Origin: Clostridium sp.
GTDB taxonomy: Bacteria; Bacillota; Clostridia; Clostridiales; Clostridiaceae
Assembly: GCF_030532265.1 (NCBI RefSeq)
Contig: NZ_JAUNLM010000019.1
Coordinates: 1 to 36,357 of the forward strand
Length of the DNA stretch: 36,357 nt
Direction: 5' to 3'
Shown here: positions 29,002 through 36,357 of the stretch, piece after piece
Position numbering within the stretch: position 1 is the stretch's first letter
How the letters are laid out: the number at the start of each line of letters is the position of its first letter
Made by a program: the position numbers and the translations under genes
The notes under the pieces: generated by a model
Database searches by the model: none
What the model was told of the DNA's origin: nothing
Seen by the model: the letters and a program-made list of their open reading frames with translations, nothing else

Positions 29002-30336
29002 ATGGAAACAACAGTTAATAAAACATTGCCACAAAGTATAGAAGCGGAACAATCAGTAATTGGTTCTATGATTATTGATAGAAGTGCAATAGCTCAGGCT
29101 GCTGAAGGACTAGAAGAAAATGATTTTTATAGAGACAGTCATAAAGTTTTATTTAAAAGCATACTTGATATGTTTAAAAAGGATATGGCTGTAGATTTAG
29201 TTACTGTACTTGAGGAGTTAAAAGCTAACGATATGTTAGAAAGAGCTGGCGGTGTTACATATGTAACAGAAATAACATCATCTGTACCAACTACAGCTAA
29301 CCTTTCTTCTTATATAAAGATAGTTCAAGAAAAATCAACGCTTAGAAAGCTTATAAAAGCTTCAACTTCTATTATTGAAGAAAGTTATAATAAACAAGGA
29401 GAAGTTGAAGATGTATTAGATGCAGCAGAAAAAAGAATATTTGATATAGCAGAAAAAAGAACTACAAGTGATTTTGAACCTTTAAATCAAGTTCTTGAAA
29501 GAGGATTTATTGAAATAGAGAGATTATTTAATAATAAGGGTGAAATAACAGGAGTAGGATCTGGATTTGTAGATTTGGATGCGAAAACTTCAGGATTCCA
29601 AAAAGGTGATATGGTTCTTATAGCTGCAAGACCATCAATGGGTAAAACAACATTTGCACTAAATATTGCAGAATATGCAGCACTTAGAGAAGGTAAAAGT
29701 GTAGTTATATTTTCTTTAGAAATGTCTAAAGAACAATTGGCATATAAGCTTTTATGTTCAGAAGCAAATGTTGATATGTTAAAGCTTAGAACAGGTGCTT
29801 TAGATGATAAAGATTGGGAGAATATAGCAAGAGCTACAGGACCATTGTCTAAAGCAAAGATATATATAGATGACACTGCAGGGGTTTCTGTAATGGAAAT
29901 GAGATCAAAATGTAGGAGATTAAAGATAGAGTATGGTATAGATTTAATTCTTATAGATTATCTTCAACTTATGTCAGGATCTTCATCAGAGAGTAGACAA
30001 CAAGAAGTATCAGAAATATCTAGATCTATAAAAGCATTAGCAAAGGAAATGGAATGTCCAGTTATAGCATTATCTCAGTTATCTCGTGCACCAGAACAAA
30101 GAGCAGATCATAGACCGATGCTATCTGACCTTAGAGAATCTGGTTCAATAGAACAAGATGCTGACCTTGTTATGTTTTTATATAGGGATGAATATTATAA
30201 TAAGGAAACTGAAGATAAAAATGTAGGGGAATGTATAATAGCAAAGCAAAGAAATGGTCCTGTTGGAACTGTTAAATTAGCTTGGCTTGGTCAATTTAGT
30301 AAATTTGGAAATTTAGATACTATACATACAGAATAA
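29002..30336 (+). CDS. dnaB: Replicative DNA helicase DnaB (DnaC in Bacillus nomenclature)
   Basis: Hexameric fork helicase, 444 residues. It starts METTVNKTLPQSIEAEQSVIGSMI, the primase-interacting N-terminal domain. The RecA-like domain has Walker A ARPSMGKTTFALN near 209-221, LILIDYLQLMSG as Walker B (H2), and ALSQLSRAPEQR (H3) with SDLRESGSIEQDAD. I use ATG 29002, with AAGGAGG nine bases upstream; the open frame extends to a TTG inside that ribosome-binding site. It follows lonC's terminator and has its own terminator, so it is probably transcribed alone. Confidence 0.97.
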   Translation: METTVNKTLPQSIEAEQSVIGSMIIDRSAIAQAAEGLEENDFYRDSHKVLFKSILDMFKKDMAVDLVTVLEELKANDMLERAGGVTYVTEITSSVPTTANLSSYIKIVQEKSTLRKLIKASTSIIEESYNKQGEVEDVLDAAEKRIFDIAEKRTTSDFEPLNQVLERGFIEIERLFNNKGEITGVGSGFVDLDAKTSGFQKGDMVLIAARPSMGKTTFALNIAEYAALREGKSVVIFSLEMSKEQLAYKLLCSEANVDMLKLRTGALDDKDWENIARATGPLSKAKIYIDDTAGVSVMEMRSKCRRLKIEYGIDLILIDYLQLMSGSSSESRQQEVSEISRSIKALAKEMECPVIALSQLSRAPEQRADHRPMLSDLRESGSIEQDADLVMFLYRDEYYNKETEDKNVGECIIAKQRNGPVGTVKLAWLGQFSKFGNLDTIHTE

Positions 30337-30359
30337 TTATTTACAACTACTATGAAAAG

Positions 30360-30386
30360 CTCACCGTATCAGGTGAGTTTTCTTTA
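30360..30386 (+). terminator. Terminator after dnaB
   Basis: Short stem CTCACC and GGTGAG with loop GTATCA, followed by TTTTCTTT. A-run upstream. It separates dnaB from proC. Confidence 0.75.
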
Positions 30387-30413
30387 TAATAAATTAAAAT
30401 TGGAGGATTGATT

Positions 30414-31214
30414 ATGAGTAAAAAAATAGGATTTATAGGTTGTGGTAACATGGGAAGCTCAATGCTTGGAGGATTAATAAGCAAAGGATTTTCTAATAAT
30501 GAAGATATTATAGTTTCAACTAGAAGTGAAGAATCAAAAGAAAGATTAGAGAAACAATATAGAGTTAATGCAACAGTACATAATGAAGAAGTTGTTGAAT
30601 TTGCTGACGTATTAATTCTTGCAGTAAAACCTTACATGTATAAAGATGTTATTAGTAAAATAAAAGAACATATAACTAAAGACAAAATAATAATAAGTAT
30701 TGCAGCTGGAATAGATTTAGAAGATTTACATGAAATGATAGGAGAAGATTATAAAATAATAAAAACTATGCCAAATACACCTGCTTTAGTAGGAGAAGGA
30801 ATGTCTGCTATATGTCCTAATTCAAATATTAATGATGAAGAATTAGAATATGTTTGTAATATGTTTAATTCATTTGGTAAATATGAAATACTTTCAGAAG
30901 AGGATTTTCATGGATTTATAGCACTTTGTGGATCATCACCAGCATATGTATTTATGTTTATAGAGGCTATGGCTGATGAAGCTGTAAAACTTGGTATTCC
31001 AAGAAGTAAGGCATACAAAATGGCAGCTCAAAGTGTACTAGGTTCAGCAAAGATGGTATTAGAAACAGGTAAACACCCTGGAGAATTAAAGGATATGGTA
31101 TGTTCACCAAAAGGTACAACTATAGAAGCAGTATGTGAACTTGAAAAGCTTGGTTTTAGAAATTCTATAATAGGAGCTATGGATAAATGCGCAGATAAAT
31201 CAAAAAATATGTAA
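30414..31214 (+). CDS. proC: Pyrroline-5-carboxylate reductase
   Basis: Final step of proline synthesis, NADPH-dependent, 266 residues. The Rossmann motif GFIGCGNMGSSMLGGL begins at residue 6. The C-terminal dimer domain has the ProC signature region LGSAKMVLETGKHPGELKDMVCSPKGTTIEA. GGAGG is seven bases before the ATG at 30414 (a TTG two codons earlier is less likely). It stands alone between the dnaB terminator and a separate small transcription unit. No regulator site for proC itself is evident. Confidence 0.96.
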   Translation: MSKKIGFIGCGNMGSSMLGGLISKGFSNNEDIIVSTRSEESKERLEKQYRVNATVHNEEVVEFADVLILAVKPYMYKDVISKIKEHITKDKIIISIAAGIDLEDLHEMIGEDYKIIKTMPNTPALVGEGMSAICPNSNINDEELEYVCNMFNSFGKYEILSEEDFHGFIALCGSSPAYVFMFIEAMADEAVKLGIPRSKAYKMAAQSVLGSAKMVLETGKHPGELKDMVCSPKGTTIEAVCELEKLGFRNSIIGAMDKCADKSKNM

Positions 31215-31232
31215 TAAATTTATTTTTATATG

Positions 31233-31261
31233 TTGACAAAGTAAAAAATAGAATATATACT
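31233..31261 (+). promoter_or_regulatory. Consensus promoter of a noncoding unit
   Basis: TTGACA (31233-31238), exactly 17 bp, TATACT (31256-31261). It is one of the best promoters in the window and does not precede any protein gene before the next terminator. Confidence 0.85.
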
Positions 31262-31269
31262 ATAGTTAG

Positions 31270-31284
31270 TGATAATCAATATCA
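31270..31284. promoter_or_regulatory. Fur-like operator at the transcription start of the noncoding unit
   Basis: TGATAATCAATATCA matches the 15-bp Fur 7-1-7 consensus (TGATAATCATTATCA) at 14 of 15 positions, and the surrounding 19 bases (31265-31283) match the classical 19-bp Fur box at 16. It begins eight bases after the -10 element, so bound Fur would block initiation. A related regulator such as PerR or Zur cannot be excluded. Confidence 0.65.
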
Positions 31285-31385
31285 ATTAGAAAGCGTAAGA
31301 ATTTTGAATTGGTTATATACTGGACACACAGAACACACATAAAAAAACATTAACGCGAAAAACTCCTCTTAATTATTAAGTTAAG

Positions 31386-31426
31386 AGAAAAAAACCTTAG
31401 ATTCCACAGGTCTAAGGTTTTTTTCT
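31386..31426 (+). terminator. Terminator of the noncoding unit
   Basis: Stem of 16 bp: AGAAAAAAACCTTAGA and TCTAAGGTTTTTTTCT around a nine-base loop. It prevents read-through into purA, which has its own promoter candidate. Confidence 0.93.
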
Positions 31427-31490
31427 GTTATTTTTAATTCTATACGAATTATTTATTAAATTTATAGAAAAATATTCGATAATATGTTGA

Positions 31491-31518
31491 TTTACAACTT
31501 CCAGTTTGTTACTATATT
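31491..31518 (+). promoter_or_regulatory. Candidate promoter of purA
   Basis: TTTACA (31491-31496), 16-bp spacer, TATATT (31513-31518). The 115-bp leader has one small hairpin, GAGATT/AATCTC (31523-31539), and no recognisable riboswitch. Confidence 0.5.
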
Positions 31519-31572
31519 CATGGAGATTATAAAAATCTCAATAATTTATATTAATTTATTTAATTAATGTAA

Positions 31573-32919
<1,347 letters not shown>

Positions 32920-32934
32920 TTCCGACTGAAGAAC

Positions 32935-32963
32935 TTGACTTTAATAAATGTATAAAATATAAT
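32935..32963 (+). promoter_or_regulatory. Promoter of the DUF1858 gene
   Basis: TTGACT (32935-32940), 17-bp spacer, TATAAT (32958-32963). It starts 16 bp after the purA stop, so no intrinsic terminator is seen for purA. Confidence 0.8.
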
Positions 32964-33011
32964 TTTTTATAGATGATATTTATGTACTAAAATTATTAAA
33001 GAGGTGAATTT

Positions 33012-36304: not shown

Positions 36305-36357
36305 GGCTCCTTGGTCAAGCGGTTAAGACACCACCCTTTCACGGTGGTAACAGGGGT
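36305..36357 (+). tRNA. tRNA-Glu (TTC), cut by the window end
   Basis: It starts GGCTCCTTGGTCAAGCGGTT, with the usual D-arm. The anticodon stem CCACC/GGTGG (36331-36335, 36343-36347) encloses the loop CTTTCAC with anticodon TTC at 36338-36340. The 5' 53 bases are present to the beginning of the T-arm (CAGGGGT). It follows a strong promoter by about 58 bp. Other tRNA genes probably follow outside the window. Confidence 0.95.

Follow-up and report, generated by a model that had tools for sequence, protein, structure and literature searches.

A conserved small RNA gene, very likely under Fur control, between proC and purA in Clostridium and its possible role in iron sparing

In anaerobic clostridia, central metabolism is built on iron-sulfur (Fe-S) enzymes. 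Small RNAs linking iron supply to enzymes of this kind include RyhB and PrrF, both repressed by Fur, and RyhB has its own family in Rfam. RyhB and PrrF are described as Hfq-dependent proteobacterial RNAs that regulate Fe-S enzyme mRNAs (PMC9410917). The same paper describes FsrA of Bacillus subtilis, which is Fur-repressed, uses a C-rich motif to bind Shine-Dalgarno sequences, lowers the expression of iron enzymes and requires FbpA, FbpB and FbpC, as well as IsrR of Staphylococcus, a Fur-regulated RNA of 174 nt with two Fur boxes, three single-stranded C-rich regions, a terminator and conservation throughout its genus (PMC9410917). It also notes that RyhB, PrrF, FsrA, IsrR and MrsI arose separately (PMC9410917).

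For the clostridia, a full-text literature search returned no described iron-sparing RNA among the matches listed, and no Fur-regulated RNA in Clostridium in the titles and abstract beginnings of those matches. A genus-wide prediction of clostridial small RNAs was reportedly made in 2011, and could include the locus described here. Term searches of the available main text of three C. difficile papers (PMC6311696, PMC3649979 and PMC10267692) and of a study of start sites in three clostridia (PMC9045289) yielded no Fur-linked or iron-linked small RNA, and the available part of a report on C. acetobutylicum RNAs mentions iron once, for RyhB (PMC3879012).

The locus lies in a 36,357-nucleotide stretch of Clostridium sp. 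DNA (the window), where 418 bases separate the proC stop codon (PF14748/PF03807 by Pfam) from the purA start codon (PF00709) and hold a complete RNA gene on the forward (+) strand. Its sigma-A type promoter, TTGACA-17-TATACT (31233..31261; -35 box 31233-31238, -10 box 31256-31261), has a 17-nt spacer and 11 of the 12 consensus bases, and is one of the two best among the 19 promoter-like sites in 30000-33000; as shuffled sequences contain 19.4 such sites, the promoter by itself is no proof. A Fur box, TGATAATCAATATCA, identified by motif scan and conservation, is found at the predicted transcription start (31270..31284). The predicted RNA of about 157 nt (31269..31425) takes its start from the -10 box and agrees with a covariance model match at 31266-31425. 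Single-sequence folding places the transcribed Fur box in a 5' stem-loop (31268..31321), which is followed by an A/C-rich linker with CACACA elements (31320..31341), a conserved core, AAAACTCCTCTTAATTATTAA (31359..31379), containing the proposed pairing segment ACUCC, and an intrinsic terminator with a CCACA loop (31386..31426), the last recognised by terminator scan, fold and compensatory changes. The terminator comprises 18 pairs by the scan and 15 in the fold, followed by a T-run, and is beyond chance, the scan detecting one in 31200-31460 where shuffled sequences average 0.0; the RNA as a whole (31268-31430) folds at -36.2 kcal/mol (z -4.5).

A sequence-only reading of this DNA had proposed an RNA gene between proC and purA with a consensus promoter, a 14-of-15 Fur-like operator at the predicted start, no protein frame and a terminator with a T-run, and each of these features was borne out by the scans and by comparison. 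Its CU-rich, Shine-Dalgarno-pairing segment stood in part. Within ACTCCTCTT (31362-31370) and its surroundings, AAAACUC of the window RNA has a predicted unpaired fraction above 90% and the C after it one of 56%, and ACUC is conserved, whereas the UCUUAA that follows is predicted to be mostly paired, in a hairpin that the sequence-only reading did not note. Judged by sequence and comparison, on which the promoter, Fur box, terminator, non-coding nature, conservation and synteny are based, this is an independent non-coding RNA gene with its own promoter and terminator.

In comparison with the described systems, the locus offers what FsrA uses, a C-rich segment suited to predicted Shine-Dalgarno pairing, since ACUCC is complementary to a Shine-Dalgarno sequence and its ACUC is conserved and predicted to be unpaired. 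Very likely Fur control, unpaired C-rich sequence, a terminator and conservation within the genus are shared with IsrR, from which the locus differs in having a single Fur box (31270-31284) instead of two and, in place of three C-rich regions, one clear exposed ACUCC together with the CCACA displayed by the terminator loop. FsrA itself was compared by description, no Rfam family being matched at the locus at gathering score; RyhB was absent at relaxed thresholds as well, the 14 sub-threshold matches being led by ohsC_RNA at 27.8 bits against the 50 required. The RNA would work like FsrA, IsrR and RyhB, a likeness that, set by description, concerns function.

The Fur box differs from TGATAATNATTATCA at one position, whereas every other site in the window has at least two mismatches, and it is the only one within three mismatches in the last 8 kb; at three mismatches or fewer, the window holds 9 sites, fewer than the 15.5 expected by chance. 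Over 0.70 Mb of the same genome (the window and 40 further stretches), the motif occurred ten times with at most one mismatch, as against 1, 5, 2 and 3 times for its reverse and three scrambled versions. At two mismatches or fewer it was not enriched in this genome (103 sites versus 128 for the reverse), and weaker sites were therefore ignored. The genome contains 17 sites with at most one mismatch, and the loci of 15 were examined: seven precede iron- or transport-type genes (FeoA, FeoB, Ferric_reduct, Flavodoxin_1, Peripla_BP_2, ABC transporter and Zip by Pfam), one is the RNA gene, three are inside coding frames and four adjoin no evident iron function or no clear frame. The FeoA box is a perfect palindrome, with one short frame between it and feoA, and the flavodoxin gene carries 20 identical bases, TGATAATCAATATCAATTAG. 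For the ABC transporter and Zip, iron may be the cargo, a candidate role only. Three Fur-family proteins are encoded in the genome. The near-invariant promoter, box and ACUCCUCUUAA of the orthologues, together with equally close boxes at iron genes of the same genome, make it very likely that the RNA gene is under Fur control. Of the four loci without evident iron role or clear frame, one has its one-mismatch Fur box between genes read as ribosomal protein S4-like and rubredoxin-like (L125, near 1500), and a perfect Fur box precedes a similar ribosomal protein gene in genome G011 (L211).

Conservation was examined within the genus, where the gene (type A) occupies the proC-purA position in 7 of 68 genomes, including its own; a DNA search accounted for six of these and the seventh, G062, is more distant. 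The closest relative found, G030, is 91% identical over a 261-base query, and the RNAs of G030 and Clostridium sp. Ade.TY agree in all of 150 bases; the first 150 RNA bases are identical in Clostridium sp. Ade.TY, C. moniliforme, Eubacterium multiforme, C. sardiniense, C. thermobutyricum and an uncultured MAG. With the window as reference, the -35 box is identical in all six other proC-linked orthologues, the -10 box in five and the Fur box in five, with one base changed in the sixth. The core AAAACUCCUCUUAAUUAUUAA is 100% identical in four and 86% and 52% identical in the two most distant. Identity is 53-88% in the promoter spacer (the five more distant orthologues having 53-59%), 33-90% in the gap after the terminator (33-57% in the same comparison) and 57-80% at proC third codon positions, while within the RNA the 5' stem region ranges from 42 to 94%, the CACACA linker, position by position, from 32 to 95% and the ACAUUAACGCG stretch from 0 to 100%. 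Promoter, Fur box and core downstream of proC were thus found near-invariant where the sequence-only reading had looked to conservation for its check, and the loss of the box in close relatives, which it had named as evidence against itself, was not seen. The DNA between the RNA and purA also has conserved stretches, so that conservation alone cannot mark the ends of the RNA. In six orthologues, the terminator shows compensatory changes in 3 of 15 consensus pairs; the 5' stem-loop has 13 consensus pairs, each present in four to six of the six, with no compensatory change. RNAalifold, applied to a 12-sequence alignment that also included types C and D (below), recovered five pairs inside the Fur box and not the 5' stem-loop, probably because the terminators do not align, which leaves the six-sequence comparison as the structural support for type A.

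The wider family was searched with a type A covariance model built from six sequences, leaving out L022, whose 3' part aligned poorly. The model matched 15 of 206 family genomes, of which four lacked a Fur box and were discarded; the remaining 11 comprise the seven of type A, three from a second genus (type C) and one from a third (type D). Weak matches lacking the box (L042, L044, L047, L048 and L064) were excluded from the counts. As a pattern, a Fur box followed after 55-85 nt by ACTCCT occurs in 24 of the 206 genomes, compared with 2 for the reversed pattern; these are six of type A, ten of type B (described below), three of type C, two of type D, two of another kind and one unassigned (G097, L081). 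Two matches in Paenibacillus (L104 and L109) were rejected, a ribosome-binding site and a signal-peptide-like frame being read after the box. Across 12 sequences of types A, C and D, TTGACA, TATA-T, the Fur box except for one base, and ACTCCT are invariant, and the ACACA of the linker, which recurs in all three types, is nearly so. Among named records, type C is found in C. intestinale, where two tandem copies each have their own promoter and perfect Fur box (L098, 3329-3686), and in C. paridis. With genes identified by reading translations, type D lies directly downstream of dnaB-proC at both loci read, type C of C. paridis is flanked on both sides by other genes within the interval from a dnaB-like gene to purA, and type C of C. 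intestinale is one gene from purA. The shared place and the shared core argue for common descent of types A, C and D.

Among 391 genomes of the class, a set with 19 members of this family, the pattern was found only in the genome of the window. A search for TGATAATCANTATCA in five genomes without a known RNA gave five places in two of the five, none of them, by reading, with the core of this RNA, the boxes of L210 and L213 included. In two further genera (L082, near 1500, - strand; L086, near 1500, + strand), a TTGCA(A/T)-17-TATAAT promoter was observed with the box GATAATCATTATCA, then a common C-rich CCGCCTCTAACTCCCTAAT together with a hairpin, which may represent a third kind of Fur RNA.

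Fourteen other genomes of the genus carry a different RNA with a promoter and Fur box like those of type A (type B; a fifteenth match without a Fur box was not counted). Twelve of the 14 have in common a UCCACA hairpin loop, CUCCUAU, an AGAA-UUAUUUC element and a terminator, and compensatory changes in 11 of 30 consensus pairs over the 12 sequences provide strong evidence for an RNA (type B loci L012, L013, L014, L015, L016, L020, L026, L055 and L058-L061, near 1500 in each). In G006 and G028, ACUCCU is lost and the gene lies 1.3-1.4 kb from a flavodoxin gene. Among named records, type B occurs for example in C. tertium, C. sartagoforme, C. nigeriense and C. gallinarum. It resembles type A in its promoter, Fur box, CUCCUAU core and strong terminator, but differs in the body of the RNA (the UCCACA loop and AGAA-UUAUUUC), in its locus, which adjoins comB on the downstream side in six of the seven loci examined (by Pfam for one), and in the genomes that hold it; no genome among the 206 searched, under stricter filters, had both. 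The present RNAs would add to the separately arisen Fur RNAs, with two unlike types dividing one genus.

These comparisons bear on readings in which there would be no separate RNA gene. The position between two co-directional genes, with no terminator-like site found by the scan from the proC stop to the RNA promoter, would suit a purA leader or attenuator, or a processed 3' end of the proC mRNA. However, a near-invariant promoter and Fur box follow the proC stop, the strong terminator ends 206 nt before the purA start codon with a separate promoter-like site (31491-31518) after it, the related RNA of C. intestinale and C. paridis adjoins neither purA nor proC, and type B adjoins comB at six of the seven loci examined, all of which makes such an origin very improbable. 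A short peptide gene under Fur control is harder still to credit: frames of 10-21 codons, most of which begin with TTG, are present in each of the seven orthologues, but they are the only ones, indels are frequent, and no frame keeps its length, phase and sequence across the seven. That a promoter, an AT-rich palindrome and a proC terminator came together by chance could be entertained because promoter-like sites are no commoner than in shuffles, yet the conservation and synteny across species and genera show the RNA gene to be more than chance, and this reading has almost nothing left of its probability. The four were rejected on the evidence of the terminator, the RNA's own promoter, the frames and conservation.

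We consider it likely that the gene encodes a free-standing, Fur-repressed RNA whose ACUCC masks the Shine-Dalgarno sites of Fe-S enzyme mRNAs, with that of pyruvate:ferredoxin oxidoreductase (PFOR) first among them. Fur binding, the response to iron, the pairing, its targets and the outcome are what we infer from the features above. With plentiful iron, Fur would repress the gene, and with scarce iron it would be transcribed into an RNA consisting of the operator-bearing 5' stem-loop, the A/C-rich linker, the exposed ACUCC core and the terminator. ACUCC(UCUU) would then base-pair with Shine-Dalgarno regions (GGAGU / AAGAGGGGU) in the mRNAs of abundant Fe-S enzymes and block their translation, PFOR first, while the same derepression would switch on flavodoxin and iron uptake genes. 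From its place being kept in several relatives, the RNA probably helps to save iron by shutting off iron-hungry enzymes. As the gene is conserved and has a clear operator and core, iron sparing in clostridia can be put directly to the test.

The ranking of candidate targets drew on 646 sampled genes, those of the window among them, or about 28% of the genome. By duplex energy, PFOR came 6th; 2nd place went to a protein that combines dihydroorotate-dehydrogenase and 4Fe-4S domains, and 8th place to a 4Fe-4S protein of sulfite-reductase-like type (Pfam). Fe-S motifs mark three of the top ten as against 19 of the 646 overall. As a set, however, the 19 Fe-S motif genes were not significantly favoured, either by energy (p = 0.06) or against shuffled-flank controls (p = 0.20), and PFOR dropped to 69th of 646 once intramolecular RNA structure was counted. 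Target prediction around the core thus yielded a high energy rank for PFOR that did not carry over to structure or to the Fe-S genes as a group; given these mixed statistics, Fur control is held to be very likely and the target only a lead. Complements of the core were found at 334 places in six genomes, compared with 177 for the reversed sequence, as is expected of anything resembling a ribosome-binding site; this search, one ambiguity code of which was off, was set aside.

In each of the seven type A genomes, PFOR has the ribosome-binding site AAGAGGGGU, predicted to pair with ACUCCUCUU. This site is also present in five of eight examined genomes without a known RNA of this kind, among the PFOR copies listed, and one such genome's site pairs with the window RNA at -19.2 kcal/mol, versus -18.7 for the window's own; AAGAGGGGU is missing from four additional PFOR copies of type A genomes. 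On AAGAGGGGU sites from genomes of types A and C, RNAs of those two types reach -13.2 to -20.3 kcal/mol and are weaker, at -8.3 to -13.8 kcal/mol, on the PFOR sites of type B genomes. Three ordinary type B RNAs are weak on every PFOR site (-5.4 to -10.5), the exception being the divergent RNA of G028, with up to -15.2 on foreign sites. The PFOR site GAAAGAGGGGUCACGCGAUG of the seven type A genomes would form nine pairs with ACUCCUCUU, and the window species adds further pairs through CGCG. PFOR is the best candidate target, though only suggestively so. As an observation on the site itself, GAAAGAGGGGUCACGCGAUG, found at a single PFOR gene in each genome, shows no difference among seven species (L132, L133, L130, L134, L136, L135 and L158) and exceeds what a Shine-Dalgarno sequence needs.

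The clostridial iron-sparing RNA of the sequence-only reading is therefore supported in part, as an independent Fur-controlled RNA gene through its orthologues and the boxes at iron genes, and not in a significant preference for Fe-S targets. A Fur-regulated RNA with some other job, acting on a neighbouring pathway or on uptake genes or as a sponge for another RNA, would be consistent with Fur control and RNA conservation being better supported than the targets, and with top predicted partners that include genes without Fe-S motifs. Such a role is unlikely, as the Fur-repressed Firmicute RNAs FsrA and IsrR spare iron with C-rich segments (PMC9410917), a scheme that the exposed ACUCC fits. The masking of Fe-S enzyme mRNAs remains the preferred reading, and a narrower form of it can be put forward tentatively, as doubtful in its full detail: the Fur RNA of the dnaB-proC-purA region of Clostridiaceae would be vertically inherited, its ACUCCUCUU would stop PFOR translation under iron shortage, a single Fur event thereby moving carbon flow from ferredoxin/PFOR to flavodoxin, and the type B species would have an unrelated Fur RNA and PFOR sites without a match.

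Two minor observations were made elsewhere in the window. Between the terminator and purA, upstream of the purA promoter, the stretch 31446-31483 (TACGAATTAT...AATATTCGATA) is 66-97% conserved in the orthologues and presumably resembles a purine-repressor site. At the end of the window, a partial tRNA match (36305-36357) is cut off by the window edge.
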